From the NCBI GenBank assembly GCA_031264075.1, contig JAISEO010000053.1, forward strand, positions 1 through 32,339: DNA of 32,339 nucleotides, given 5' to 3'. The translations under genes and the position numbers were made by a program. The notes under the pieces are model-generated. The model was not told where the DNA came from, did no database searches, and saw nothing but the letters and a program-made list of their open reading frames with translations. Positions 1,923 to 28,539 of the stretch are shown here, piece after piece. This stretch comes from Coriobacteriales bacterium (GTDB lineage: Bacteria > Actinomycetota > Coriobacteriia > Coriobacteriales > UBA8131). The number at the start of each line of letters is the position of its first letter. Position 1 is the first letter of the stretch.

Positions 1923-1997
1923 TAAATCGTCAGCTGTGCCAGCCTGCGGCAGTGCTTCCTCAGCGGTATGAACAGTGTGAAGACAAGGAGAACCATC

Positions 1998-3002
1998 ATG
2001 GCCCGTATCAAGGATTACATCGACAGCACCCCGTTTACCAAGGAAGAGCTGCTCACCATCGTAGACCTCTCCCGTGCCATCAGGGATGCCATCCAGGCCG
2101 GTTACTACCCACCGCTTCTGAAGAACCGCACCTTGGGCATGATCTTTCAACAGAGCTCGACGCGCACCCGTGTTTCCTTTGAGACCGCCATGATGCAGCT
2201 TGGCGGGCACGCGCAGTACCTCGCCCCCGGGCAGATACAGCTGGGCGGACACGAGACGCTGGAGGACACGGCCAGGGTGCTCAGCCGTCTGGTGGACGTA
2301 CTCATGGCACGTGTTGACCGCCACAGCGACGTCGCGGATCTTGCCCGCTTTGCCACCGTGCCCGTCATCAACGGCATGAGCGATTACAACCATCCCACGC
2401 AGGAGCTGGGTGACCTCATCACCATCATAGATAACCTGCCCGAGGGCAAGCGGCTGGAGGACATACGGGTTAGCTTTGTGGGCGATGCCACCCAGGTCTG
2501 CGCCTCGCTCGGTTTCATCATCACAAAGATGGGCGCGCATTTTACGCAGTTTGGCCCGGTGGGCTATCAGTTGAGCGAGAAGTATCAGGACATCCTGCGC
2601 GCAAACTGCGCGGTAAGTGGCGGCAGCTTCACCATTACCGATGAGGCGGACCTGGGCTACCGCGATGCCGATTTTGTCTATACAGACGTCTGGTATGGCC
2701 TGTATGACGCTGAGCGGAGCGAGAACGAGTATCTGAGCGCGTTCATGCCTGCCTATCAGGTAACCAGCGCGGCCATGGAGATGGCGGCGCCGCACGCAAA
2801 GTTCCTGCACTGCCTGCCCGCCTCACGTGGTGTCGAGGTTACCAGCGAGGTGCTGGACGCGCCCTATTCCCTCGCTTTTGAGCAGGCGGGCAACCGGCTC
2901 ACCGCGATGCGGGGCATACTCGTGTACTTTACGCCGCCTGTCGTTTTGAATGCGGCGGCAGCCGATGAGGCAAAGGCGCGCATTGAGCGCCTCATGTCCT
3001 GA
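1998..3002 (+). CDS. ptcA: Putrescine carbamoyltransferase
   Basis: Converts N-carbamoylputrescine and phosphate to putrescine and carbamoyl phosphate in the agmatine deiminase pathway. The 334-residue product has the carbamoyl-phosphate site S53-S54-T-R-T-R58, the HPTQ motif near 131 and HCLPA near 269, all shared with ornithine carbamoyltransferases. In place of the ornithine-specific SMG loop it reads [10 protein letters not shown], which is the signature of putrescine carbamoyltransferases. The ATG at 1998 sits 7 nt after AAGGAG (1985-1990), whereas the upstream in-frame start at 1968 lacks one. The next gene is the antiporter, 94 bp downstream. Confidence 0.9.
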
Positions 3003-3096
3003 GCGGAGCCGGAAGAGCGCATTGTGTTGCGAGGCGCTGGCAAGGTGTTGGCGCTGGAGAAAAAAGGAAGGTCGAACAAGGAAGGGATGAGCGGGT

Positions 3097-4482
3097 ATGG
3101 AGAAAACGGGAAAGAAGAAGTTCAGGCTCTTTGACGCGGTGCTGGCCGCGGTCTGTATCATCTTGGTGGTGGAGGCAGCCGCACCGAGTGCCGCCATAGG
3201 CAACAGCCAGTATTTCTGGTGGCTGCTCATGTTAGTGGCGTTCTTTTTGCCGTATGGTCTGGTAAGCGCCGAGTTGGGCACCACCTATACCGGCGAGGGC
3301 GGCCTGTTTGACTGGGTTAATCGCGCCTTTGGACGCCGGTGGGGGAGCCGTGTGGCCTGGTACTACTGGGTCAACTTTGCGCTGTGGATGGCCTCGCTTG
3401 CCGTGCTCAGTATCAGCGTTATCGAGCAGGCCTTTAGCATCGAGATACCCCTCTACGTTGCGCTACCGGCAGAGCTCGCCTTTATCTGGATAGTGAGCTA
3501 CCTCTCCAACCACTCGGTGGCAGAAAGTGCGATACTCATCAACATCGCCACCATCTTCAAGATCCTCATCATGGTTGCACTCGGCGTGCTGGGCATCTAT
3601 TTTGCCCTCACCTTTGGGGCAGCCAACCCCATCACCTCGCCGGCCGACCTGCTCCCCAGCGCGGACGGTATCTCGTTCATCGGCATCATCATCTTCAACT
3701 TCCTCGGTTTTGAGGTGGTCACCACCTTTGCCGGCGAGATGGAGAACCCCAAAAAGCAGATTCCCAAGGCTCTGCTGCTCGGCGGCATCCTCGTGGCATT
3801 CTTCTACATCTTTGCGTCTTTTGGCATCGGCGTGGCCATCCCCCTGGACGAACTCACCGCCTCCGGCGGCCTGCTCGACAGCTTTGCCTTCTTCTTTGAC
3901 AACCTCGGCATTGCCTCTGTCTTCCTCATCATCGTTGCGCTCATGTTCATCTACACGCTCATCATCAACCTGCTCTCGTGGGCCCTCGGCGTCAACTACG
4001 TGGCCATGTACGCCGCCGACAGCAACGCGCTCCCCAAGGTGTTCAGCAGGCGTAAGAAGGGCACGGAGGATGTTCCCTTTGGCGCGAGTATGGTCAACGG
4101 TGTGGTTGCGAGTGTGCTCGTGTGCATAGCGCCACTCATCACGATGGTCACCGGCGACGAGGAGATATTCTGGAGCTTCTTTGCCCTGCAGATCATCACG
4201 CTGCTCGCCTCCTATCTCATCCTGTTTCCAGCCTTCCGCAAGCTCCGGCGTACCGACCCCAACGCGGAACGCCCCTTCAAGGTGGGCGGTGGCCCCGTGC
4301 TGCTCAACCTCATCACCTGGGTGCCCATGGTGCTGCTCGTGCTCTCGCTGTTCTTCTGCATCACCTGGCCTGAGGAGGAAGGCTGGGTGGTTGATTGGAC
4401 GCTGCTCGTTGGCGCGGTCGTGGCCGTGTTGGCCGGGGAGGTCATCGCTGCCGTTACCGGTCGTCAGAAAGACAGGGAATGA
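3097..4482 (+). CDS. aguD: APC-family amino acid/polyamine antiporter, probable agmatine:putrescine exchanger
   Basis: 461-residue integral membrane protein with about 12 hydrophobic segments starting at residue 12. It carries APC features such as GEGGLFDWVNRAFG after helix 2 and the stretch GFEVVTTFAGEMENP near 200, typical of the glutamate:GABA/polyamine antiporter branch. Its position between ptcA and aguA makes agmatine uptake in exchange for putrescine the most likely role. A GAAGGG-type ribosome binding site precedes the ATG. The gene symbol rests on context; the transported substrate cannot be read from sequence alone. Confidence 0.82.
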   Translation: MEKTGKKKFRLFDAVLAAVCIILVVEAAAPSAAIGNSQYFWWLLMLVAFFLPYGLVSAELGTTYTGEGGLFDWVNRAFGRRWGSRVAWYYWVNFALWMASLAVLSISVIEQAFSIEIPLYVALPAELAFIWIVSYLSNHSVAESAILINIATIFKILIMVALGVLGIYFALTFGAANPITSPADLLPSADGISFIGIIIFNFLGFEVVTTFAGEMENPKKQIPKALLLGGILVAFFYIFASFGIGVAIPLDELTASGGLLDSFAFFFDNLGIASVFLIIVALMFIYTLIINLLSWALGVNYVAMYAADSNALPKVFSRRKKGTEDVPFGASMVNGVVASVLVCIAPLITMVTGDEEIFWSFFALQIITLLASYLILFPAFRKLRRTDPNAERPFKVGGGPVLLNLITWVPMVLLVLSLFFCITWPEEEGWVVDWTLLVGAVVAVLAGEVIAAVTGRQKDRE

Positions 4483-4513
4483 GCGCCTGTGCAAGCAGAC
4501 TGCTTTCTGCCTG

Positions 4514-4528
4514 CCCGGACAGTCCGGG
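4514..4528. promoter_or_regulatory. Perfect 7-bp inverted repeat between aguD and aguA
   Basis: CCCGGAC, one A, then GTCCGGG. It lies in the 176-bp gap before aguA. It could be a protein-binding palindrome or a small mRNA hairpin; there is no T-run, so it is not a convincing terminator. Confidence 0.35.
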
Positions 4529-4658
4529 TAGCCTGCCAGTCCGCTGCCGAGCTTTGCCTGCCCGGGCAACCGCTCACCTCACAAGATTCGCCCCAATTCC
4601 GCAGGCTGACCAGCCACCTGCAAACCGATGGATACTCCTGTAGAGGAAAGGAACCCTC

Positions 4659-5753
4659 ATGAAACGCCTCACATCAACTCCTGCTTCTGACGGCTTTCAC
4701 ATGCCCGGCGAGTTTGAACCGCACGCGGGCTGCTGGATGCTCTGGCCCGAGCGCCCTGACAACTGGCGCCTGGGTGCCAAGCCGGCGCAGGCGGCCTTTG
4801 TGGAGGTGGCCCGCGCAATCAGCCGATTCGAGCCGCTGACCGTGGGCGTGAGCGCCGCGCAGTACGACAACGCCGTCAACCTGCTGCCAGACGCGGTGCG
4901 GGTCGTCGAGCTCTCCAACAACGATTCGTGGGTGCGCGACTGCGGCCCCACCTTCGTGCGCAACGACGCCACCCGTGAGATCCGAGCGGTTGACTGGGTA
5001 TTCAACGCCTGGGGCGGTCTCTATGACGGGCTCTACTTTCCGTGGGATAAGGACGACGAGGTTGCGCGCAAGATATGCGAGATAGAGCGCGTGGCGAGCT
5101 ACCGTGCCGAGGGTTTTGTGCTTGAGGGCGGCTCCATTCACAGCGACGGCGAGGGCACGCTGTACACCACCGAAGAATGCCTGCTGTCTCCGGGGCGCAA
5201 CCCGGAGCTCACCAAGGAACAGATAGAGGAGAAGCTCGGCAGCTATCTGGGCATCGAGAAGATAATCTGGCTCAAGGGTGGCATCTATCTGGATGAGACC
5301 AACGGCCACGTGGACAATATCTGCTGTGTGGCACAGCCCGGCACGGTGCTCCTGGCCTGGACCGACGACGAAAACGACCCGCAGTACGCAATCAGCAAGG
5401 AGAACTACGACATCCTCAAGGGCTCCACTGATGCGCGCGGCCGCGAGATACAGGTGATAAAGCTCCCGCTGCCTGCGCCCATATGCATAACCGCCGAGGA
5501 GAGCCAGGGCGTCGACGCCGTAGATGGAACGCTGCCCCGCTGTGAGGGAGACCGGCTGGCGGCATCCTACGTCAACTTCTACACTGCCAACGGAGGTCTC
5601 GTTGTACCGTCCTTTGACGACCCTAACGACGAGGTGGCTGTCGAAGTGCTGCAAGGCGTCTTTCCCGGCAGGGAGGTGGCAGTGGTGCCTGCGCGCGAGA
5701 TACTGCTCGGCGGCGGCAACATTCACTGCATTACCCAGCAGCAACCAGCTTAA
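4659..5753 (+). CDS. aguA: Agmatine deiminase
   Basis: Hydrolyses agmatine to N-carbamoylputrescine and ammonia, the first step of the pathway whose second step is encoded by ptcA upstream. The 364 residues match the family length. Visible signatures are [12 protein letters not shown] (about 87-98), [27 protein letters not shown] and the C-terminal [12 protein letters not shown] with the catalytic nucleophile at C357, the same number as in characterised enterococcal agmatine deiminase. The ribosome binding site AGAGGAAAGGAA precedes the ATG. No carbamate kinase (aguC) follows, so ATP recovery from carbamoyl phosphate must use an enzyme elsewhere, or the carbamoyl phosphate is used otherwise. 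Confidence 0.95.
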
Positions 5754-8168: not shown

Positions 8169-8197
8169 TTGACATACCCAGTAAAGTCAGCTAAACT
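8169..8197 (+). promoter_or_regulatory. Sigma70-type promoter of the surface-protein operon
   Basis: TTGACA at 8169-8174, a 17-bp spacer and TAAACT at 8192-8197. It is the best promoter match upstream of the 8566 gene. Transcription would start near 8204 and give a leader of about 360 nt. Confidence 0.6.
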
Positions 8198-8203
8198 TAT
8201 AAA

Positions 8204-8565
8204 ATTGCTATAAAAAGCAAGGAACGATTGAGACAGCTGAAGGAGAACATGCGGGGAATGGCGGCAAGCACAACGCTGTGCGCGAACCGCAAACCGCGAA
8301 CCGCAAACGCACTGTTCCCTTGATGCTCAGAAGATGGAGGAGGTTGATATATGTTGCACGCACCACGTGCATGGCTCTGTAAGCCGTGCGCTATACGCAT
8401 TCAGGCAACACAGTGTCTGCGAATGTATCAGACGGCCCGTTAACCGTCAACTGAAAGCGGGCCGTCTACGCAACCCGAGTGGGCTGCCCTCTCATTATAA
8501 CAATCTTCCAGGGTAGTCCGCCTTCAATCTTGAGTTATCGATTTGATTTGATTGAAAGGACTTAC
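8204..8565 (+). promoter_or_regulatory. Long structured leader of the surface operon
   Basis: The 499-bp gap 8067-8565 holds no convincing gene. Beyond the promoter it contains a perfect tandem duplication of 14 bp (CGCGAACCGCAAAC at 8281-8294 and 8295-8308). Three successive hairpins follow: TGCACG/CGTGCA (8355-8371), ATAC(gc)ATTC/GAATGTAT (8393-8428, with ACAC/GTGT inside), and a perfect 10-bp stem AGACGGCCCG/CGGGCCGTCT (8430-8467). None is followed by a T-run, so simple termination is unlikely. The layout resembles a regulatory RNA leader, but I do not recognise a known riboswitch class. Confidence 0.45.
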
Positions 8566-11265
8566 ATGATGACCCAGATTCATCCTATTACAGAACCAAG
8601 ACCTGCGCGAAACGTGGTGGCCACCGTGCCATACGCTGCGGCACACGGTCCTGGCACACACACTACTTCATCCAAAACCCACTATGGCAGCTTGTTGGCC
8701 GACCCTCGCCGGATCCTCGCCCTGGCGCTTGCACTCCTGCTGGCACTGCAGTTGACAGGCATCGCAGCCCTGGCAGGCACCCAGGCCCACGCCGCTGATC
8801 CACAGGAGATCGTCGGGCTGCCAACAGCCCCAGCGCCCTATGCCTGGAGCCGCACAGCCGTTGAGACGACGGGCGACTTCTTTGCCGACACCTATAACGG
8901 TGTAGGCGCCGGCAGTGTGTTTGAGGATGTCACCGTAGACAGGCTGGCAGACATTCTCAGTGCCGCCGGTGACTATTATGTTGTCTTTGCCAACCCCAAC
9001 ACTGCCTCCGGGCAGGTTATTCTGGCAGACATCAACGCACAGGCCAAGGCTGCTGGCATCACCAGGATCTACCACTTCAATCCGGTGGTGGACAACTTCC
9101 GTTTGGACATCACCTCTACCGACCCTGCAATCAGGGATATCACCAGCGGCAGCTGGTCCACCGGCATCACCGGTGGGGCGGAGGGCACCAGCTTTGCCAC
9201 TATTCCCCATTCCATTGGCGGTATTTACACCTACATCAAATCCCTGCTGCCCGTCTACTATGCGGACAATAACACGGCAGAGGATCAGGCGACCAGGGCG
9301 GTCTTTGATGGCTACACCTCGCAGCAGACCCTGCTTTTTCGGTTTCATAAGGACAACCACACCGATCTTCCTGCTGCGGCCAGCATAGACGCCACCTACC
9401 TGTTTGGCGAGGCAGACGGCACGGTAAGCTACAGTGAGACGGCCGAGGCCGCAAAGATTGCCCCGGTGTTCCAGGGCAGCTCGGGTTCTGTGCCTGCCGA
9501 TACGCGTAGCGAGTACCAATTCATCACCAGAGGCTTTGCCGCCACCGGTGCCAGTCCGGCCATCAGTGCTGCCGATTATCCCGATGGCGCAGGCTTCAAT
9601 CTTGACTCTGTCACCTTTGAGGAAGTGTTCAACCTCCTCAACTCGTCAGGCGAGCACAGCTTCTACTTCTTTGCCTTCGGCTGCGGTGACACCAAGGCGC
9701 TCATTGCCAAGGCAGCGTTGGCCGCCAAGGCAAACGGTACCACGTTGTATCTGGTGGATGGCTCACTTGGCGGATCGATACGCTACAAGGGCGGCAGTGA
9801 TATCGACGTGCTGTCAAGCAGCACCTCCAACGCCTGGCTTAACATCCGCCTGGGCAATAGTACTGATCCAACATCTGCCCAGAAGCAACTCAGCTACCTC
9901 TATGGCGAACTGGTCAACGGCTACTTTGGCGACGGTTTCATCACGCAGAACAGTTTTGCAAAGGCCTCAAACAACATCCAGTATTATGTCAACGGCGACA
10001 TCGGCAATCCTGACGCGCTCACCAACGGCTTCAAGCAGGACGGTGCCACCAGGCCTTACGCGCCGCGTTTGCAGTATCCCATCCTGCTCACCTACAACAA
10101 GGCCTATGTGGAGCCGGTGACACTCGACACCACGGCAATCAAGGTCACGAAGAACCAGGACGGCGTTGTTACGGGAGTGACCGAGTACATGGGCAGCGTA
10201 GCCAAGCAGGATTCCAGCTATAACACCGATGCATTCACCCCCTATGTCAACGTTACCAATCCGCAGTATCTGGCCGCACAGAGGGCAACGCAGCAACTGG
10301 CAACCGAAGAGTTCACCACCCTGGGCACGCCCACTATCACCAGTGACGACCCAAACGGCCTGCCGGTCATCGGCGTAGCGCTCCATGCCAATACCGGTAC
10401 CTGGGTGCCAACGCCGAGCAGCTTCAGCTACCAGTGGTTCTCGTTTGATGATCCCATCAGCGACGCAACCGGGGCCAGCTATATTCCCGTCATTGAGGAC
10501 TATTGCAATGAGATAAGCGTCAAGGTTACCGCTCACCTCAGCGGCTACGAGGATGCCACGGTGCAGTCCGACTTTGTTCAACCGGAGCCCGCAGAATACA
10601 GCGATGCCACCGTGTACTTTGAGGGTGCGTCAGAGGCTGTGGTTGGTGCTGAGGTAGAGTACGAGCTTGGCCTGGGCAACATTGCCGGTCCTGCTGCCTT
10701 TGAAGCAACTGTCACGGCCAGCGATGAGTTGCAGCTCAAGTCTGTTGTAGCTCTGGACGACGAGTGGATAGCTGCCGTGATAGCCACAGACAGCGACAAC
10801 ACCAAAAAAATCGTCTTTGGGCCTCGGGTCTCGGATCCTGAAGCGAGCCTGTACGCAGCTGCACCACAGCTCAAACTCGTGTATACCGCAACAGCCGCTG
10901 GCTCGGCAACCGTCACGCTGCAAAGTGTGCGTGCTGCCGCCATAACCGGCTTCGTGGATAACATCGCCCAGGTTGTCTGGGCACCCGTTGACGCACCGCA
11001 GGGAGACAAGGCGGTTATCACCACCACGGTTGAAGAGGCCCAGAGCAGCTCTGAGCGTTTTGACTTTAACCAGGACGACGAAGTCGACCTTCTCGACCTC
11101 GCCTTTGCCAAGGCCTATTATGGCGCCTCTGCCGAAGTTGGCGGAGACCTCTGGGATGTTGCTCTGGAGCACGGCATTGATGTGGATGAGAGCGGCGAGA
11201 TCGATGTTGCCGACCTCATTATCATCATCAACAATATCTACGGCCTCCAGGAAAACGGTGCCTGA
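8566..11265 (+). CDS. Secreted protein with thioredoxin-like, Ig-like, cohesin-like and dockerin domains
   Basis: 899 residues, not recognised as a named protein. An unusually long N-region precedes a signal-peptide core (about 47-72) with a likely AHA-type cleavage near 76. Next comes a thioredoxin-like domain lacking its cysteine (AGDYYVVFANPNTASGQ near 134), then a second with a CxxT site at C373-G-D-T376. An Ig-like domain (583-675), a cohesin-like beta-sandwich (about 678-815) and a C-terminal type I dockerin (833-892) follow. The dockerin has two calcium loops: D833-x-N-x-D-x3-D-x2-D, and D872-x-D-x-S-x3-D-x2-D. There is no membrane anchor. The stop overlaps the next gene's ATG (TGATG), so translation is probably coupled to the cohesin-like anchor. 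ATGs at 8566 and 8569 are both compatible with GAAAGGA. Confidence 0.75.
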   Translation: MMTQIHPITEPRPARNVVATVPYAAAHGPGTHTTSSKTHYGSLLADPRRILALALALLLALQLTGIAALAGTQAHAADPQEIVGLPTAPAPYAWSRTAVETTGDFFADTYNGVGAGSVFEDVTVDRLADILSAAGDYYVVFANPNTASGQVILADINAQAKAAGITRIYHFNPVVDNFRLDITSTDPAIRDITSGSWSTGITGGAEGTSFATIPHSIGGIYTYIKSLLPVYYADNNTAEDQATRAVFDGYTSQQTLLFRFHKDNHTDLPAAASIDATYLFGEADGTVSYSETAEAAKIAPVFQGSSGSVPADTRSEYQFITRGFAATGASPAISAADYPDGAGFNLDSVTFEEVFNLLNSSGEHSFYFFAFGCGDTKALIAKAALAAKANGTTLYLVDGSLGGSIRYKGGSDIDVLSSSTSNAWLNIRLGNSTDPTSAQKQLSYLYGELVNGYFGDGFITQNSFAKASNNIQYYVNGDIGNPDALTNGFKQDGATRPYAPRLQYPILLTYNKAYVEPVTLDTTAIKVTKNQDGVVTGVTEYMGSVAKQDSSYNTDAFTPYVNVTNPQYLAAQRATQQLATEEFTTLGTPTITSDDPNGLPVIGVALHANTGTWVPTPSSFSYQWFSFDDPISDATGASYIPVIEDYCNEISVKVTAHLSGYEDATVQSDFVQPEPAEYSDATVYFEGASEAVVGAEVEYELGLGNIAGPAAFEATVTASDELQLKSVVALDDEWIAAVIATDSDNTKKIVFGPRVSDPEASLYAAAPQLKLVYTATAAGSATVTLQSVRAAAITGFVDNIAQVVWAPVDAPQGDKAVITTTVEEAQSSSERFDFNQDDEVDLLDLAFAKAYYGASAEVGGDLWDVALEHGIDVDESGEIDVADLIIIINNIYGLQENGA
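10312..10590 (+). repeat. Ig-like domain segment duplicated at 12468-12746
   Basis: A 93-codon segment is present here in the dockerin protein and again, same length and orientation, at 12468-12746 in the membrane-anchored paralogue. Long runs of identical DNA, two of them about 30 bp each, show recent duplication or gene conversion. The domain follows the first protein's thioredoxin-like pair but precedes that of the second, so it has been shuffled as a module. Each copy keeps one cysteine (YCNEIS / WCNEIS). Confidence 0.85.
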
Positions 11266-12143
11266 TGCGTCTCACTCCACAACGACGTATCACCCGCTTG
11301 TATGGGCTGGCGCTGAGCCTGGCGCTGGCCCTGGCTCTGGCGTGCGCGGCACCTGTTGCCGCGCACGCCGTGGAGGTGCCGGACGGTGTTGCCGAGGTGA
11401 GCATACCGATTGTTCTGGTAACCGGCAGTGAAGCTATCGCCGGTGCCGAGTTGGAGTTCAGCTTCTCAAACGGGCTGGAATACGTCAGGTACCAACCGGC
11501 AGACGGCATCGAGAACCCGGTGTCCAATGCACAGGGAGGCACCCAGCACCTTGGGTTCTTTTCGCTTGACAACAGGTATGTTCCCACCGATGAGAGGCTG
11601 AGTTTTGGCAGTCTGATATTCAACTATACGGGGGTCGAGCCTCAGAGTATCTCAGTCACTGAGATTGCACTGCACACCAGGACCGGTGCTGGCACAAACA
11701 CGGAGGTCGTGAGCCAAAAGACCACCAATGCTGTCACCATCCCCGTGACCCGCGCCAGCGTAGCAGGCGGGAGCGACTCCGGTGCAGATGGTGCCACAGG
11801 CGATCCTTCACCATCCACTCTTCCTGCTGGCGGTACACAGACACCGGCAGTTGGCAGCGGGGCAGCGGCGGGCGAGACGGATGCCGTTGAGCTGGATGCC
11901 GATGACGGGGCAGGCGTGTCCGGCTCCGCCTTGGCATCCCGAGGACAGGCTGTCAATACCGCAATCCCCGACGCAGATGCCCCGCTGTCTGGGGGAGGAC
12001 TGCCTGGAGGCTCAGAACAGTTACCGCTTGTAGTGGGAACAGTGCTCATAGCCGCGGTTATTGCCGCAGGGGTTCTGTACTACGTCTTCTCCCGGAAAAA
12101 GGAACGCAAGGGTGAAGAAGCCCAAAGTCAGCAGCAGGCCTGA
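11265..12143 (+). CDS. Membrane-anchored cohesin-like surface protein
   Basis: 292 residues. An N-terminal signal peptide (core about 13-28) is followed by a cohesin-like beta-sandwich (about 35-160), with the typical flow VSIPIVLVTGSEAIAGAELEF, a GLEYV segment and LSFGSLIFNYTG. A Gly/Ser/Ala/Asp-rich linker (about 165-255) leads to a transmembrane helix (about 257-277) and a Lys/Arg-rich cytoplasmic tail. There is no LPXTG motif. The ATG overlaps the stop of the upstream dockerin gene. Cohesins bind dockerins, so this protein is a plausible cell-surface dock for its neighbour, and the linker would span the wall. The cohesin call is by pattern and needs a profile search; the binding is inferred. 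Confidence 0.72.
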   Translation: MRLTPQRRITRLYGLALSLALALALACAAPVAAHAVEVPDGVAEVSIPIVLVTGSEAIAGAELEFSFSNGLEYVRYQPADGIENPVSNAQGGTQHLGFFSLDNRYVPTDERLSFGSLIFNYTGVEPQSISVTEIALHTRTGAGTNTEVVSQKTTNAVTIPVTRASVAGGSDSGADGATGDPSPSTLPAGGTQTPAVGSGAAAGETDAVELDADDGAGVSGSALASRGQAVNTAIPDADAPLSGGGLPGGSEQLPLVVGTVLIAAVIAAGVLYYVFSRKKERKGEEAQSQQQA

Positions 12144-12168
12144 CCGAGGCTTGACCCGGACTGACTCA

Positions 12169-12203
12169 GGGGAGGCGCGCGTTCTGACCAAGGGCGCCTC
12201 CCC
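12169..12203 (+). terminator. Intercistronic hairpin, possible partial terminator
   Basis: Perfect 10-bp GC-rich stem GGGGAGGCGC/GCGCCTCCCC with a 15-nt loop, in the 87-bp gap between the cohesin-like and thioredoxin-like membrane proteins. It is followed only by GGTTTGG, so it is not a strong intrinsic terminator. It may attenuate read-through or protect mRNA ends, setting different levels for the two halves of the operon. Confidence 0.5.
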
Positions 12204-12230
12204 GGTTTGGCAGAAACAGGGAACAGTAAC

Positions 12231-14822
12231 ATGAGAAAGGTTGCGAAGATTTTGCAAGGGACAGAAGACAGCAGGCGAAAGCCTCAACCGCGTCAACGGT
12301 TTGGCGTGCGCAGAGCCGCTGTGATTGCCCTGGCGGTCATGATGGTTCTTTCGACCGTGGGCGCACCGCTTGCTTCGGCCAGGCCTGTGTATGCCGAGGC
12401 CGAGATACCGCCAGGCGTGAGCGCGGACGAGGGCAGGGATCCCATAACCGTAGCGGCCCTAAGTAGCTTCACCACCCTTGGCACGCCCACTCTCACCAGT
12501 GACGACCCAAAGGGCCTGCCGGTCATCGGTGTTGCGCTGCGCGCTCTCCCCGGCACCTGGCTACCTGAGCCGAGCAGCTTCAGCTACCAGTGGTTCTCGT
12601 ATGAAGAGCCAATCAGCGGCGCAACCGGGGCCGCCTATGTGCCTGTTATTGATGACTGGTGCAATGAGATAAGCGTCAAGGTTACCGCTCATCGTAGCGG
12701 CTACGAGGATGCCACGGTACAGTCCGGCTTTGTCCAACCGGAGCCCTTCGAGGACGACGGCGGTACCGGTAACGGTGACACGGGCAAGGGCGATGACGGC
12801 ACGGGCCATACAGGCGATGATGACGGTGGCGCTGGTGATAACACCGGCGATAAAGACGATGAAGGTGATGAGGACAGCAGCGATTTTCGCAGCACCTATT
12901 ATCCCTGGGCCGTGCACGCTGCCACCGGCAACTATCTCCAGGACAACTACGATGAGGTTCCCGCAGTGCACAGCTTTGAATCGGTAACACAGGAGCGACT
13001 GCTTGATATTCTCAGCAGCGCGGGCGATTACTACCTCGTTTTTGGTGGGCCGAGCAGAGTGAGTTCTCAAAGGATCCTGCCCCTGATAAACCAGCAGGCC
13101 CAAAGCGCCGGTATCACCAGGATATATCACTTTGATCCTCTGATTGACGGATATCAGGCTGATATCACTGTTCCTGACAGCCCGTACCGGACTTCTCAGT
13201 CCATCAGCGCGCTCTGGGATCGTATCACCGCCCTTTTGCCCACCGGCGAACCCCTGGCGAGCTATGACCTCACCGATACCCTGTTCTTCAGGTATCACGC
13301 AAACCCGCAGAACCTCGGGAGCCGCGGCGCGATACCAGCTTTCTACCGCTTTACCGCCGCACAGGCACAGGCCTTTGACGAGGCCAGCGAGAGGTCTGCC
13401 ATTGACCGGGTGTTCAGGAACGGCAGCACCGTTGTGCTCTCAAGCGTGCGCACAGACCTGCAGTTCTTCAACAGGGTGTACAATGCCTCGGCCACTCTGG
13501 TCAACTCCCGGATGCCCGAGCAGGACTACAAGGTCGATGCTGCGTCCATCACACTGTTTGACGGCCTCACAGAATCAAACTTCAAACTGCATCAGATAAG
13601 CTTTGCGGAACTGCAGAACCTGTACAACACTCCCGGCGAGCACATCATTTTCTTCGGTGCCAGCTGGTGCCATAACACGCAGGCCATTATCGGTACCGTG
13701 GCCGCCGAGGCAGCCAGAAACCCAAACATCAGCACTGTGTATGTCTACGACACCACGCTGGGCAATCAAGTAAGCTTTGGTACCGGCGCAAACAACGACA
13801 GGGCCACGGCCTATTCCAGCGTTTTCAACACCCGCAACGGTGCCAAGGACGGGCCCGCCGGAAACAACAATCTCAGCTACGTATACGGAGAGGCTGTGCG
13901 GCCCCTGGGCAGCTTTCTCAGTGAGAACAACACCAATAAAACCGGCTCGATAGAGTTTTACGCCAATGGCGATCTCAGCGGGACAAGCCCGGTGAGTTCT
14001 GTGTTGCCCTGGAATGCCACGGGCCTGACCCCGGCAGCCAGCATCAACGCCATTCGTTTGCAGTTGCCGTTTCTCGTGGCTTATGACAAGGACTCAGGCA
14101 GCAGCAACAAGGCGGTTCGGCAATGGCTCCACCAACAAACCAGCGCGGCCAATGAGGGCAAATACCTGGAGTACATGCTCGAGCTGGCCTGGGTGCGTGC
14201 GGGAGGATGCACATCTGCCGCTGAGGCCGCTGCCAAAGGAGTGACGGCTGCCTATGAGAGCACGAGGGTCTTCCGAAACGGCGGCATTACCAACGACGAA
14301 GGCCTGACTATCGCTCAGGCGGGTGCCCGGGCAATCGCCCAGGTCAACCATGTTCTGCAGGTCAGCGGCAAAGAGGATACTACCGGGGAGAGTGACAAGG
14401 GAGAGTCTGGCGTAGAGGAGCCAGGCTCAGGGTCAGAGAACGCACCGGCTGCTACGCCTGAGGCAACTCCCAACCCTGGCTCAGCGGCTGCAATACCCAT
14501 TACCTTCAGGCAGGGCGCAGGCACTTCTTCGGCAGCTACGACCCGTACAGCTTCTGCAGCCCTCGCCGACGGGGACACAGGCTCTGAATCGTCCAACAGG
14601 GCAACAGGAACAAGACAGGCATCGCTGGGGATTCCCGAGGCGGCAACGCCGCTCGGCGATGTGTCTGCTGCGTCGTCAAGCGCCGGCACTACGGACTTCA
14701 GGCTGCCGTTGGCGGTAGCTTTATTGCTGACAGCCCTGGCTGTATTTGCCGCAATCGGCATCAAGACCGGTTTTATTGCGAGGCCAGTGCCCAAGAAGAT
14801 ACAAGAAGAAGGAGGTGCCTGA
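12231..14822 (+). CDS. Membrane-anchored surface protein with tandem thioredoxin-like domains
   Basis: 863 residues, paralogous to the thioredoxin-like part of the 8566 product. Signal peptide core about 28-45; Ig-like domain 80-172; a very acidic Gly/Asp/Thr linker (about 175-218). A thioredoxin-like domain without the active cysteine follows (AGDYYLVFGGPSRVSSQ near 265), then a second with FFGASWCHNT, nucleophile C480 in a CxxT site. A low-complexity linker (about 715-820) precedes a C-terminal membrane helix (about 825-848) and a short basic tail. The ATG at 12231 begins just before the positively charged signal-peptide start; the in-frame TTG 24 bp upstream is not needed. Probable role is extracytoplasmic thiol-disulfide chemistry or thiol binding. 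The substrate is unknown. Confidence 0.78.
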   Translation: MRKVAKILQGTEDSRRKPQPRQRFGVRRAAVIALAVMMVLSTVGAPLASARPVYAEAEIPPGVSADEGRDPITVAALSSFTTLGTPTLTSDDPKGLPVIGVALRALPGTWLPEPSSFSYQWFSYEEPISGATGAAYVPVIDDWCNEISVKVTAHRSGYEDATVQSGFVQPEPFEDDGGTGNGDTGKGDDGTGHTGDDDGGAGDNTGDKDDEGDEDSSDFRSTYYPWAVHAATGNYLQDNYDEVPAVHSFESVTQERLLDILSSAGDYYLVFGGPSRVSSQRILPLINQQAQSAGITRIYHFDPLIDGYQADITVPDSPYRTSQSISALWDRITALLPTGEPLASYDLTDTLFFRYHANPQNLGSRGAIPAFYRFTAAQAQAFDEASERSAIDRVFRNGSTVVLSSVRTDLQFFNRVYNASATLVNSRMPEQDYKVDAASITLFDGLTESNFKLHQISFAELQNLYNTPGEHIIFFGASWCHNTQAIIGTVAAEAARNPNISTVYVYDTTLGNQVSFGTGANNDRATAYSSVFNTRNGAKDGPAGNNNLSYVYGEAVRPLGSFLSENNTNKTGSIEFYANGDLSGTSPVSSVLPWNATGLTPAASINAIRLQLPFLVAYDKDSGSSNKAVRQWLHQQTSAANEGKYLEYMLELAWVRAGGCTSAAEAAAKGVTAAYESTRVFRNGGITNDEGLTIAQAGARAIAQVNHVLQVSGKEDTTGESDKGESGVEEPGSGSENAPAATPEATPNPGSAAAIPITFRQGAGTSSAATTRTASAALADGDTGSESSNRATGTRQASLGIPEAATPLGDVSAASSSAGTTDFRLPLAVALLLTALAVFAAIGIKTGFIARPVPKKIQEEGGA

Positions 14823-14823
14823 C

Positions 14824-16386
14824 GTGGGTTTTGAGGATGAAGTATCAGATCTCGGCTTTGATATCATATCCGCCAGCGCCCTGCTGGCTGTTGTCGCAAT
14901 CTTTCTTTTTATATTCCTGCTGAGGACCAAGCTGAAGCTGGGCTTTACCAAGACTGTTTTGGGCGCAATGATAGTCGGCGTTGGCATTGGCCTTCTGTTC
15001 AGCGGTCACGTTGAGTGGATCAGGCCAATCGGCACAATCTATATATCAGTCTTAACGGCGATAGTTGCGCCGCTGATTATAGTCTCCATTCTCAGCAGCA
15101 TTACCTCGCTGGGTTCGCTTGCAAAACTCAGGGGCATCGGCACACGTTCGGTGTTCTGGCTGCTCGTTACCACGGCACTGTCAATTGTCCTGGCCCTGGC
15201 ATTTGGCCTGCTCTTTGATTTGGGCCGCGGCGGCGAAGTGGCGGCAGAAGGCTTCAATACCGAGATTTACGAGAACACCATCGTGCCCATAACCAAGGTC
15301 ATCACCGACCTCTTTCCCAGTAACATCGTCAACGACATAGGCCAGGGACATATTATCCCCATGATCCTGTTTACTGTCCTGATTGCGGTTTCGTATGTGC
15401 TGGTGGCAGCAAAGCACAGAGAAAAGGTCGAGCCCTTCAAAAACCTTGTCGAAGCCCTGAGACTGATCGTATTCAAGGCCGTTGAGTTCATTATCGAGCT
15501 GACACCCTATGCGGTTGTAGGCTTGGTTGCGGTAAGTATCGGCACCAAGTTTACGAGCGGCCTGCTGTGGTCGTTGGGCCTGATGCTGCTCGTCTCCTTT
15601 GTTGTCTTTGCCCTTGACATCTGGGTGATAGGCGGTGTTCTGGTCAGGGTCTTTGCCGACCTCAATCCGCTCAGGTTCTTCAGAAAAATCATCCCGGCCC
15701 AAATCGTGGCCTTCTCCACCCAGGCCAGCGCCGGCACCTTGCCGGTGACGACCAGGGTCTTGCAGGAGGAGGTTGGGGTCGGCAGCGAGGTGGCCAACTT
15801 TACAGCGCCGCTGGGCACGACTATCGGCATGCCGGGCTGTGCGGGTATCTGGCCCATACTGACGGCGATTTACGGCATCAACGCCCTGGGTATCAGCTAC
15901 GGCCCGGTGGATTATGTGATCCTGGCAGCTGTCTGCCTGCTTGTCTCACTGGGCACGGCTGGGGTGCCCGGCACGGCAACTATCACCACCACGACGGTCT
16001 TGGCCGCCGTTGGCCTCCCGCTGGAGATACTGGTAATCACGATTCCCATAGCTGCCATTGCCGATACCGGGCGCACAGCCACCAACGTCAGTGCCGCGAT
16101 GATTGCCAGTGCAATCGTTGCCCGCCAGGTAAACGACCTCCATGAGGAGGTATTCAACAGGCCCGAGGCCCGAGGGGCAAGTCTCAGCCCTGCTTTAGAT
16201 ACTACTGGCACACTGCGGGAGGAAGCACTCCGGCCAAACGCAGCACAGACACAGAGTGTGGGCGAGGGAGCATCATTACTAGAAAGGGAAGATGACCATG
16301 CAAGTAAAGATCAGGCCGCAGTTTTCCAGAGCCGTCACAGCCTTGGCGATGTTTGTAGCTCTGGCATTGGTATTGCTGAGCTTTAG
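14824..16386 (+). CDS. DAACS-family symporter resembling L-cystine transporter TcyP
   Basis: 520-residue polytopic membrane protein. GTG at 14824 lies 7-8 nt after a strong AAGGAGGT that itself sits in the end of the previous gene. Conserved DAACS segments are seen: IVAPLIIVSILSSI, LNPLRFFRKIIPAQ, AFSTQASAGTLPVT, APLGTTIGMPGCAGIWPI and AIADTGRTATNVSAAM. The GCAG segment in place of the usual GxxxNMDGTA, and PLRFFRK, point to the TcyP (cystine) branch rather than DctA/GltP, so cystine is the favoured substrate but dicarboxylate is possible. A hydrophilic tail of about 75 residues overlaps the next gene by 89 nt. Confidence 0.8.
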   Translation: MGFEDEVSDLGFDIISASALLAVVAIFLFIFLLRTKLKLGFTKTVLGAMIVGVGIGLLFSGHVEWIRPIGTIYISVLTAIVAPLIIVSILSSITSLGSLAKLRGIGTRSVFWLLVTTALSIVLALAFGLLFDLGRGGEVAAEGFNTEIYENTIVPITKVITDLFPSNIVNDIGQGHIIPMILFTVLIAVSYVLVAAKHREKVEPFKNLVEALRLIVFKAVEFIIELTPYAVVGLVAVSIGTKFTSGLLWSLGLMLLVSFVVFALDIWVIGGVLVRVFADLNPLRFFRKIIPAQIVAFSTQASAGTLPVTTRVLQEEVGVGSEVANFTAPLGTTIGMPGCAGIWPILTAIYGINALGISYGPVDYVILAAVCLLVSLGTAGVPGTATITTTTVLAAVGLPLEILVITIPIAAIADTGRTATNVSAAMIASAIVARQVNDLHEEVFNRPEARGASLSPALDTTGTLREEALRPNAAQTQSVGEGASLLEREDDHASKDQAAVFQSRHSLGDVCSSGIGIAEL

Positions 16387-17215
16387 TTTTCCGCATCTGG
16401 GCTATGCCTTCAACGGGTATTTGGAGGACTGCGATTTTGACGCCTACGACGATGAGACGCATGCGCCGGTACCGTGGTACGGCTTTGACGAGACCAAAGG
16501 CGACGTAGTTCCCGCAGACTGGGATGGCGTTGCCGGCTCATACGTGTTTAAGGCACCGCCTGCCTCGACCGATGCCCCGGACAACACGGCCAACAGTCCG
16601 GCCGCGGATAGCCCACCTTCAAACTCTACGCAAGGCAACGCAGCTGTAGTCTCCCCTGACGACAGCACCAACAATGCCGAAGCGGCAGAAGCTCTGGAGG
16701 CTGCCGGCCCAGAGGGTTCTACAGAGGCTGCGATAGCCAATACTCCCACTCCGTTGGCGAGCCTCTCTCCCGCTGCTGCGGCAATCGTAGCTGTCAAAGG
16801 AACGCTGGACGTTGCTCCACAGAGCGGTGCTGTCTATGCTCCAGGGTCTGAAGTCATCATAAAAGGGGACGGCTTTGCTGGCAGCGTCGAAGAGCTGGAT
16901 CTGCGCCTCGGCTCCGAGAATCCGCAGGCATTGGCAAAGGTGTCAACAACCGTAGACGGCGCCTTTGAGGCCACCGTAAAGCTCCCCGAAAGGCTTGAGC
17001 CAGGCAAACACGACATCATAGTCTATTACGAGGACAGCCCGATTGTTAAACGGACGATTGACGTGGTTGAAGCTGCGCCCGGATCCGCACCTGCAGGCGA
17101 TAGTCTGTTTGTCGGAAGCATCCTCCTCGCAAGTCTGGCTATCGTAGGCGCTGGCGCCCTGTTGGGCTGGCGTGTCACCAAAAAGAAGCGTCTGAGCGAT
17201 CGCGCCAAAGCCTGA
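16298..17215 (+). CDS. Membrane-anchored surface protein with Ig/IPT-like domain
   Basis: 305 residues. Signal peptide core about 12-32; a short region rich in Asp/Tyr (NGYLEDCDFDAYDDE); a long Ala/Ser/Pro/Thr linker (about 85-165). A beta-rich domain of about 90 residues follows (LDVAPQSGAVYAPGSEVIIK through VKRTIDVVE), then a C-terminal membrane helix (about 269-290) and a Lys/Arg tail. ATG 16298 has better spacing (8 nt) to AAAGGGA than ATG 16292 (2 nt). It lies inside the end of the transporter frame, so the two are coupled. I do not recognise the family; it shares the anchor architecture of the other proteins of this operon. Confidence 0.75.
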   Translation: MQVKIRPQFSRAVTALAMFVALALVLLSFSFPHLGYAFNGYLEDCDFDAYDDETHAPVPWYGFDETKGDVVPADWDGVAGSYVFKAPPASTDAPDNTANSPAADSPPSNSTQGNAAVVSPDDSTNNAEAAEALEAAGPEGSTEAAIANTPTPLASLSPAAAAIVAVKGTLDVAPQSGAVYAPGSEVIIKGDGFAGSVEELDLRLGSENPQALAKVSTTVDGAFEATVKLPERLEPGKHDIIVYYEDSPIVKRTIDVVEAAPGSAPAGDSLFVGSILLASLAIVGAGALLGWRVTKKKRLSDRAKA

Positions 17216-17351: not shown

Positions 17352-17517
17352 ATCCAGTAACTTCTCCCCCGTGAAGGGAGCGACAGAACTGCTCCGCCGT
17401 CATGCCGTGGCAGGTGATATTTCAATCCACGCTCCCTGTGAGGGGAGCGACGATGCTTTCCAACTCCGAGTTCATCGTGATGCTATTTCAATCCACGCTC
17501 CCTGTGAGGGGAGCGAC
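17352..17517 (-). CRISPR. Orphan CRISPR mini-array, type I-C-like repeats
   Basis: Two identical 33-bp repeats (17419-17451 and 17485-17517) are preceded by a degenerate third (17352-17384). Spacers are 34 nt (17385-17418) and 33 nt (17452-17484). Read on the minus strand the repeat begins GTCGCTCCCCTCAC and ends GGATTGAAAT, as in type I-C arrays. The degenerate copy has lost precisely the 3' half in this reading, as leader-distal terminal repeats do, so transcription should run leftward with the leader to the right of 17517. No cas genes are in the window. The flanks (17216-17351 and 17518-17599) show nothing else. Confidence 0.88.
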
Positions 17518-27186: not shown

Positions 27187-28539
27187 ATGAAGAAGATAGC
27201 AATCATCGGCGGCGGAGCGGCAGGCAGTGGGGCGGTCTGGCAGCTGTATAAGAAGCTCGGTGCCGAGGTCGAGGTCACGGTCTTTGAGCGCAGGGAGCAC
27301 GTGGGAGGCCGCGCCTGGGATCTCAGCTTTGCCGGCTGCCATATGGAGGTCGGCGGCGTACTCTTTCACTCCACCGGACAGATAACCACGGAAATGATGG
27401 AGTATACGGGCTGCAAAGAGGCCCAACCCTCGCTTTCCATCGACGGCAAGGACGAGACCTACGCGTTTTGGACGGACAGGGGCTTTCCCATCGTTGTGCA
27501 TACCTCGCTCTTCTCCATGGCCTTTGGCATCCTGAGGCACGTGGGTATTCCCAGCGCGCTCAGGGTAACCAACAGGGCTGTCAAGATGGCCGAGCAGTAC
27601 GAAGGCGTCTACAAAGAGCTCAGGGAGCACGCACCCTTTGCCACGCCCCAGGCGCTCTTTGGTGAGCTGGGGCTGCTCGAACCCACGCACATCTCCACGG
27701 CTGACTACTTCAGGCAGATAAAGGTCAATGACCGCATGACCTATGACGTGGTGGAGGCCATCACGCACAATATGTACAACCAGGGCGCGGAGATGAATGC
27801 CCTGGCCTCGCTCGTGGGCCTTGCCGGTGCGGGCCTGGCTGGCGGGCATCTGTACGTTGTCGAGGGAGGCAACTGGACGCTCTACGACAAGATGATTAAG
27901 AAGACCGGTACGCGGCTGCTCGCGGACACCAAGGTGGAGAAGATTCTCATCACCAGCACACCGGAGGGGCCGCGCCCCTTTGCCTACAGCCTGCTTGCCG
28001 ATGATGGCGAGAGTTTTGAGGCCGACGCGGTCATACTGGCCGCCCCTCCCGCGCTGGCCGATCTCAGCATAGAGCTTGACGGGGAGCCCTTTGAGCTTAC
28101 GGCCTATCCCTATCAGGAGGTGCAGACCACGCTGGTGGTAGGCGAGCTTAACCCGGAGTACTTCGGCCAGAAGCCCGGCGCGCATATGCCCAGCACCATC
28201 TTTACGGCATCCAGCGCGCCTGCTCCCTTCAAGTCCATCGGCACCACCGGCTGGTCGCCAGACTACAACAGCCGCATCTATAAGATATTCAGCGCGGATC
28301 ACGTCATGACGGAGGCGGAGTTACACGAGATATTCACCAATATCCTCGATACTCACGTGCTGGTCTGGCGCGGCGCCTATCCCGTACTCACGCCAAACAT
28401 CGATCACCTGCCCTTTGAGCTTAACCGGGGCCTTTATTTTGCCAATGCCCTGGAGACCGTTGCCGGCTCCCTTGAGGTGGAAACGGTTGGCGGGGTCAAC
28501 GCGGCCAATTGCTGTGTGGAGTATCTGGCTGTGGCGTAG
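27187..28539 (+). CDS. FAD-dependent oxidase resembling eukaryotic prenylcysteine oxidase
   Basis: 450 residues. The N-terminal FAD motif IAIIGGGAAGSGAVWQL, then VTVFERREHVGGRAWD and MEVGGVLFH. Segments along the whole length recall prenylcysteine oxidase PCYOX1 rather than ordinary amine oxidases: the GAEMNALASLVGLAGAG-type centre followed by VVEGGN, the LVVGELNPEYF strand, IYKIFSADHVMTEAEL, and the C-terminal AYPVLTP with LYFANALETVAGSLE. PCYOX1 cleaves the thioether of prenylcysteine to cysteine, aldehyde and hydrogen peroxide. There is no signal peptide, so the bacterial protein is cytoplasmic. The substrate is inferred only from resemblance. The start follows GGAGGGT. Confidence 0.72.
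   Translation: MKKIAIIGGGAAGSGAVWQLYKKLGAEVEVTVFERREHVGGRAWDLSFAGCHMEVGGVLFHSTGQITTEMMEYTGCKEAQPSLSIDGKDETYAFWTDRGFPIVVHTSLFSMAFGILRHVGIPSALRVTNRAVKMAEQYEGVYKELREHAPFATPQALFGELGLLEPTHISTADYFRQIKVNDRMTYDVVEAITHNMYNQGAEMNALASLVGLAGAGLAGGHLYVVEGGNWTLYDKMIKKTGTRLLADTKVEKILITSTPEGPRPFAYSLLADDGESFEADAVILAAPPALADLSIELDGEPFELTAYPYQEVQTTLVVGELNPEYFGQKPGAHMPSTIFTASSAPAPFKSIGTTGWSPDYNSRIYKIFSADHVMTEAELHEIFTNILDTHVLVWRGAYPVLTPNIDHLPFELNRGLYFANALETVAGSLEVETVGGVNAANCCVEYLAVA

Follow-up and report, generated by a model that had tools for sequence, protein, structure and literature searches.

We analysed a stretch of 32,339 nt (hereafter the window), a 32 kb contig (JAISEO010000053.1) within the 2.18 Mb draft genome of a Coriobacteriales bacterium (GCA_031264075.1), and focused on five consecutive plus-strand genes at 8566-17215, named TrxDoc, Coh, TrxTM, SDF, and TIG. 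Two of them encode thioredoxin (Trx)-like proteins, one of which ends in a dockerin; the others encode a predicted cohesin-fold protein, a symporter, and a further surface protein. The genes and their main features, including immunoglobulin (Ig)-like domains and transmembrane (TM) segments, are as follows:

8566-11265, + strand: TrxDoc, with a signal segment, two Trx-fold repeats, an Ig-like domain, a cohesin-like domain, and a dockerin
9682-9684, + strand: Cys373 of TrxDoc (GCGDT), the only Cys of its Trx repeats
10618-11010 (approximate boundaries), + strand: cohesin-like domain of the C. perfringens X82 type before the TrxDoc dockerin (Foldseek 2vo8, 2jh2, 2w1n)
11059-11238, + strand: dockerin with two calcium loops, DFNQDDEVDLLD and DVDESGEIDVAD (PF00404)
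11265-12143, + strand: Coh, with a signal segment, one cohesin-fold domain, a low-complexity stalk, a C-terminal TM segment, and a basic tail
11358-11762, + strand: predicted cohesin-fold domain of Coh (AlphaFold2 model and Foldseek)
12231-14822, + strand: TrxTM, with a signal segment, an Ig-like domain, two Trx-fold repeats, and a C-terminal TM segment
13668-13670, + strand: Cys480 of TrxTM (WCHNT), invariant
14824-16386, + strand: SDF (DAACS) symporter, TcyP-like (PF00375 and alignment)
15817-15846, + strand: TM7 motif TTIGMPGCAG with a one-residue Cys insertion (alignment with E. coli TcyP, GltP, DctA, and SstT)
16292-17215, + strand: TIG-domain surface protein with an N-terminal EDCDxDxYDD motif and a C-terminal TM segment
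16430-16432, + strand: Cys47, the only Cys of the TIG protein, at a position kept in 16 homologues

TrxDoc, whose start was placed at 8566, is 899 amino acids long and translationally coupled to Coh as the preliminary description of this DNA had claimed, with its stop codon TGA (11263-11265) sharing a base with the Coh start codon ATG (11265-11267; TGATG at 11263-11267). Coh, TrxTM, and TIG each have hydrophobic segments near both termini, the C-terminal one leading into a basic tail, in agreement with the membrane anchoring proposed for them, and TrxDoc has an N-terminal hydrophobic segment without a C-terminal anchor. No LPxTG motif was found in any of these four proteins. The TIG domain of the last protein is a weak Pfam match (E = 0.0013, below cutoff).

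The dockerin of TrxDoc was recovered by PF00404 at residues 832-891 (24.2 bits against a curated gathering cutoff of 22.9), which bears out the two-loop type I dockerin previously read from the sequence, and is the single dockerin of the draft genome by this model. Both of its calcium loops are conserved across relatives, and a YY...W signature lying between them marks its subfamily. Coh had no match in Pfam or NCBIfam, was missed by the Pfam cohesin model PF00963 in the genome scan, and gave no useful match in a PDB sequence search. Its AlphaFold2 model, built from an alignment of 5 sequences only, is a nine-strand sandwich (predicted local distance difference test [pLDDT] = 79, predicted TM-score = 0.72), for which Foldseek ranks 1-27 were all cohesins (best E = 5.7e-6, TM-scores up to 0.69), including type I cellulosomal cohesins, the archaeal non-cellulosomal 2xdh, and C. 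perfringens 2jh2. Judged from this model, Coh is predicted to be a sequence-divergent cohesin-fold protein. The domain preceding the dockerin in TrxDoc matched 2vo8 (TM-score 0.79 by target length, 2.7 A) in a model from 16 sequences with a pLDDT of 66 overall and mostly about 75-94 in the C-terminal part. The preliminary description was thus right to place cohesin-like domains in both proteins. Cohesin profiles over the window genome (G000) returned Coh, with its single domain, and one match on contig C4 (L041, G000:C4:26606-26998) inside a 2057-aa cell-wall-binding (CWB2) protein, and no others; neither a scaffoldin with several cohesins nor a dockerin-bearing glycoside hydrolase was found in this genome, the sole dockerin sitting on TrxDoc.

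We further searched for Coh-family relatives with profile A2 and examined 15 loci. The family consists of short surface anchors that Pfam does not see, anchored by TM segments (the window, L026-L028, L046, L060, and L112) or by SLH repeats (L113, L114, and L117-L120 by Pfam, and L116 by likeness to L114). A gene for a dockerin-terminated protein adjoins the Coh-family gene in 14 of the 15 loci (exception, L115), and these dockerins share the two loops with YY...W between them, an adjacency that supports cognate pairing. A mirror-tree correlation (r = 0.85) is confounded by phylogeny and was not used as proof. The docked cargo is Trx-like in the window, L026, and L027, a nitrilase-type CN_hydrolase in L046, and a transcobalamin-like protein (DUF4430/SQHop/FIVAR) in L060 (G012:C48:6000-19977), where a TM-anchored paralogue, a DUF4430 protein, and a membrane protein accompany it; the layout of this operon parallels that of the window, and it possibly serves cobalamin uptake with the same clip. 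Further cargo includes BD-FAE-type proteins, BspA-like leucine-rich repeat (LRR) proteins, an M14 peptidase, and an NAGPA/metallophosphoesterase, with no glycoside hydrolase catalytic domain above cutoff among the cargo of the loci examined. This variety of cargo argues that the cohesin-dockerin pair is a separable cassette and that the clip itself is not redox-specific. The label 'mini-cellulosome' given earlier fits poorly, since Coh has one cohesin domain and its relatives are private anchors for unrelated proteins. In the same family of bacteria, L042 and L043 (G023:C1:8000-46000) hold about 14 surface genes in a row that encode dockerins (BspA-type LRR, PKD), adjoining a scaffoldin that has three cohesins and a dockerin, together with two TM-anchored cohesins; no glycoside hydrolase was found in the dockerin genes scanned, and from its domain content this appears to be a cellulosome-like surface array in Coriobacteriia.

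The Trx-like repeats had no match by Pfam or PDB sequence search, and their assignment draws on the predicted beta-alpha order, an invariant Cys and Pro, and a short alignment between profiles that links them to TlpA/TrxC/CcmG at 74% probability. No Trx appeared among the listed Foldseek matches of the multidomain TrxDoc model, and its strand/helix order fits thioredoxin. Each protein contains two homologous repeats (profile probability 96.7), the first without Cys and the second with WCHNT in TrxTM or GCGDT in TrxDoc and an invariant Pro ahead of a strand, as in thioredoxin. A CxxC active site is absent from all close members; they have one invariant Cys instead, with Thr replacing the resolving Cys in 18 of 18 aligned Trx-like members, and in most clostridial members the Cys of WCHNT is the only one of the mature protein. 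Similarly, the single mature Cys of the TIG protein lies in a conserved EDCDxDGYDD motif and is kept in 16/16 homologues. One invariant thiol on each of two exported partners invites the idea of a mixed-disulfide relay, and binding without redox chemistry is also compatible with these single cysteines. The Ig-like domains with a conserved Cys are 76% identical between TrxDoc (10300-10602) and TrxTM (12456-12767), far above the 34-52% of the Trx repeats, which suggests domain exchange or gene conversion.

SDF (PF00375, E = 1e-92) is the only gene of its kind in the window genome. It shares the Cys insertion in TM7 with E. coli TcyP (GMPGCAG in the window, ATIGQNGCAG in TcyP), whereas GltP, DctA, and SstT lack it; overall it is 27% identical to TcyP and 22-25% identical to the other three. 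Its best NCBIfam models are GltP/DctA, and it has the TM8 arginine and aspartate that bind aspartate in GltPh (PMC12668577), residues that TcyP, a known cystine importer of E. coli also called YdjN (PMC4383340), retains as well. The GltPh sodium-site positions N310, D312, and D405 are altered. The closest solved match, 9bgz ('Aspartate transporter'), was set aside as substrate evidence, as it comes from an ancestral-reconstruction study of ion coupling (PMC12668577). Some SDF tails carry Cys near the C-terminus (window 16340-16386; L027-L029, L031, and L032), for example GAGCRI and GACKIEF.

Scanning genome contigs with TrxTM gave 14 loci, to which the G762 locus was added as the 15th, and the order Trx, SDF, TIG on one strand was found in 14/14 and in G762. 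Chance adjacency of this core is untenable because the gene order is conserved. Its carriers are Coriobacteriales, Family XIII, Lachnospiraceae, Anaerocolumna, [Clostridium] fimetarium, and Eubacterium. Two further Coriobacteriales genomes and one of Clostridiales Family XIII (L026, L027, and L028) have all five genes in the same sequence, so the five-gene order first noted in the window is kept in relatives; among core loci the upstream pair of dockerin protein and Coh was confined to these three, and the Coh profile had no match in the 11 other core-carrying genomes. The nearest operon-bearing relative is the Coriobacteriales metagenome-assembled genome (MAG) Gx481_bin10 of the same genus, and we take these Coriobacteriales MAGs to be of termite-gut origin from their names and background knowledge. 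Of 400 genomes sampled from the class Coriobacteriia, 2 had clear Trx matches, as did 2 of 392 from the order to which [C.] fimetarium belongs, and G803 and G532 had distant ones. This patchy distribution suggests that the core module spread horizontally.

A link to cysteine comes from the relatives. Upstream of the Trx gene in L034-L037, L039, and L077, all from rumen and gut Lachnospiraceae/Eubacterium, lies a short open reading frame (ORF) with 7-11 Cys behind a ribosome-binding site (e.g., MKFVSQAILNRCCCVCVTMCRCCRMACCCCQNF...). Across both strands of five rumen loci (167 kb), the ribosome-binding-site-preceded short ORFs with at least 7 Cys are exactly the five leaders. The three leaders tested (L034, L037, and L077) all have promoters of the TTGACA-17-TATAAT type (12/12 matches in L034 and L077, 11/12 in L037) and are followed by intrinsic terminator hairpins with U-runs, and a second conserved block encoding EKFCCSIRCC directly precedes the Trx gene. 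By comparison, this layout matches that of ribosome-mediated cysteine attenuation as known for other genes (PMC8632094, PMC9031893, PMC1262725). Downstream, the rumen loci encode an Rrf2 regulator closest to IscR/CymR, glutamate-cysteine ligase, an EgtC-like amidotransferase, a cystathionine gamma-lyase-type enzyme, and a PatB C-S lyase, and G762 has a PatB-like pyridoxal phosphate enzyme, a LysR-like gene (by eye), and a MetNIQ-type ATP-binding cassette (ABC) system; such genes adjoin some of the loci and not all. These leaders and neighbours give strong independent support to the cystine-type importer named in the preliminary description. A T-box in L032 was rejected as a regulator of the module, as it precedes tyrS.

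The window operon has a leader of its own, with the following features:

8169-8197, + strand: sigma-70-like promoter, TTGACA-17-TAAACT, 10/12 consensus matches
8351-8443, + strand: candidate leader peptide MLHAPRAWLCKPCAIRIQATQCLRMYQTAR of 30 amino acids with 3 Cys, behind GGAGG
8430-8467 and 8481-8519, + strand: stable hairpins with no U-run

The promoter is weak evidence alone, 7 having been found in the scan against 3.6 expected. The leader peptide is kept in L026 as MVCEPRAWLCTPCQMCVHTMNRFRLRMRWTAR with an in-frame 6-nt gap (PRAWLCxPC...LRMxxTAR), and the changes within PRAWLCxPC are mostly at third positions. The leader (8335-8530) folds with a z-score of -3.9, and Rfam returned no family, riboswitch, or T-box in it. 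A leader DNA search found it in L026 and as a single copy in the window genome, by which a repeated element was rejected. Cys richness alone was likewise rejected as proof of cysteine control, the control giving about 0.11 such ORFs per 500 nt. Because the Cys content is not significant alone and there is no terminator, cysteine control in the window organism itself is a suggestion only.

We consider it probable that the operon is a cysteine-scavenging surface module in which a second thiol protein is held non-covalently by a private cohesin anchor. The core would display single-cysteine Trx-fold and TIG proteins beside a TcyP-like symporter, where the lone thiol could capture its ligand, cystine or a mixed disulfide of cysteine, by forming a transient mixed disulfide with it or by binding alone, before that cysteine-containing ligand is handed to the SDF importer. 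In the termite-gut Coriobacteriales, the Trx-like gene would have been duplicated and the extra copy secreted without an anchor and with a dockerin, so that the translationally coupled, membrane-anchored, single-cohesin Coh could retain TrxDoc at the surface. Under cysteine limitation, this display would probably concentrate cystine or cysteine mixed disulfides at SDF. Several observations weigh against this interpretation: the Trx assignment relies on a model of moderate quality and a profile match over a short stretch, the long branches of the SDF tree leave its kinship with TcyP unplaced, the window leader has just 3 Cys and no terminator, L027-L033 and L038 are without clear Cys-rich leaders, the cargo is not always purely Trx-like (the docked protein of L028 is a fusion of Trx and an M1 peptidase), and the adjacent cohesin-like domain of TrxDoc itself could compete for the dockerin.

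The same proteins might instead form a surface reductase complex acting on extracellular disulfides or on cystine ahead of import, as had been proposed earlier. Trx-like repeats with a cis-Pro-like position and two partner proteins with one invariant Cys each, which could form a relay, would suit such a reductase; WCHNT/GCGDT without a resolving Cys in all close homologues, and a window operon without a CxxC protein or a membrane electron donor, make it doubtful here. The distant G803 locus (L076:2620-7770) encodes an SDF protein, a small surface protein ending in VSIPMC, a WCHNS Trx-like lipoprotein, a genuine TlpA (WCSPC), and a 4Fe-4S membrane protein; given the last two, which also favour the reductase, a reducing version of the module, branching into extracytoplasmic thiol reduction, may exist elsewhere. 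A non-redox receptor, in which the Trx-fold proteins bind a ligand as substrate-binding proteins do and the conserved Cys has no role beyond structure or ligand contact, is possible, if on balance unlikely: the Cys-free first repeat, the docked and anchored transcobalamin-like (DUF4430/SQHop) pair of the parallel G012 operon, and the dockerin-bearing substrate-binding proteins reported from anaerobic methanotrophic (ANME) archaea (PMC9012536) all accord with it, whereas the invariant Cys and Thr of WCHNT are what thiol chemistry would conserve.

We regard ordinary uptake of acidic amino acids or dicarboxylates with accessory surface proteins, with the cysteine links being specific to Lachnospiraceae, as very unlikely. 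It would explain the GltP/DctA models, the TM8 residues of GltPh, and the loci without neighbouring Cys genes, but the TM7 Cys insertion is common to TcyP only, TcyP has the same TM8 residues, the sodium-site positions are changed, and relatives have Cys-rich leaders. It also seems improbable that the partner of the dockerin is the cohesin-like domain next to it in TrxDoc, or another cohesin (e.g., G000:C4), and that Coh is unrelated to TrxDoc retention: the X82-like domain and the CWB2 protein offer such partners, but the stop-start overlap of TrxDoc and Coh and the recurrent adjacency of Coh-family and dockerin genes, across different cargos and anchors, favour the pair encoded together. Overall, what the preliminary description observed is confirmed and its interpretation is partly supported. 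Two of the outcomes that it named as refuting, the lack of a predicted cohesin fold and of a conserved gene order, did not occur; the cystine-type importer gains support, disulfide reduction does not, and the mini-cellulosome label fits poorly. Beyond the cysteine-scavenging module itself, the chances seem evenly balanced that the divergent and previously unrecognised cohesin subfamily is a private one-cargo clip, encoded next to its dockerin cargo in gut Clostridia and Coriobacteriia alike and repeatedly plugged into nutrient-acquisition modules, which in the window would serve a monothiol Trx-fold cysteine trap beside a dedicated importer that is cysteine-attenuated in relatives.

Elsewhere in the window, two 37-nt direct repeats 66 nt apart (17415-17517; ATTTCAATCCACGCTCCCTGTGAGGGGAGCGAC) resemble a short type I-C CRISPR remnant. 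A Prenylcysteine lyase family protein (27187-28539; PF07156, E = 1.4e-46) is encoded about 10 kb from the cysteine-type importer; known enzymes of this family liberate cysteine. At 1968-5753, an amino acid permease gene stands in tandem with a peptidyl-arginine/agmatine deiminase family gene, with a probable carbamoyltransferase (by eye) upstream. NiFe hydrogenase subunits are encoded upstream of the operon in the nearest relative (L026:1606-4949) and not in the window.

The module resembles several known systems and differs from each. With the cellulosomes of C. thermocellum and R. flavefaciens it has in common cohesin-dockerin modules and a surface-anchoring cohesin, but here there is one recognised cohesin per anchor and no repeat scaffoldin, and the docked proteins of the examined loci include neither a carbohydrate-binding module nor a recognised glycoside hydrolase. 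Cohesins and dockerins outside cellulosomes are already known (Peer 2009, as cited in PMC9012536), and the X82-like domain of TrxDoc and the Coh model recall such modules (C. perfringens 2vo8/2jh2 and archaeal 2xdh); the systematic gene pairing of dockerin cargo with a private single cohesin, and the thiol cargo beside an importer, set the present system apart. In ANME archaea dockerins also occur on nutrient-uptake receptors, but that system is archaeal, of the ABC type, and built on multi-cohesin scaffoldins (PMC9012536). SDF shares with TcyP/YdjN (PMC4383340) the SDF/DAACS fold, the TM7 insertion GCAG, and the TM8 GRTA.N, and differs in its 27% identity, in GMPG versus GQNG in TM7, and in an operon with surface Trx-like and TIG proteins. 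Mycobacterial poly-Cys upstream ORFs (uORFs) are described as cysteine-responsive leader attenuators (as cited in PMC9031893; PMC1262725), with uORFC-8-2 lying upstream of cysS (PMC8632094); the Lachnospiraceae leaders likewise place a Cys-codon-rich uORF and a terminator before a Cys-related operon, but have a new gene target and a tandem second CCSIRCC block, and the window form has 3 Cys and no terminator. The Trx-like repeats keep the strand/helix order and the W-C and cis-Pro-like positions of the thioredoxin/TlpA family, but have Thr for the resolving Cys, a Cys-free first repeat, and no Pfam or PDB sequence match. In the literature searched, with partial coverage, no description was found of the core module, its Cys attenuators, or paired private cohesin anchors.

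These findings would take cohesin-dockerin pairing out of polysaccharide machines and into the scavenging of small molecules, and would give these bacteria a simple route to exchange surface cargo without covalent anchoring. The one-to-one pairs may be usable as building blocks. Moreover, rumen and gut bacteria have in the Trx-SDF-TIG core a module for cyst(e)ine acquisition that seems not to have been characterised before, with Cys attenuators that can be tested.

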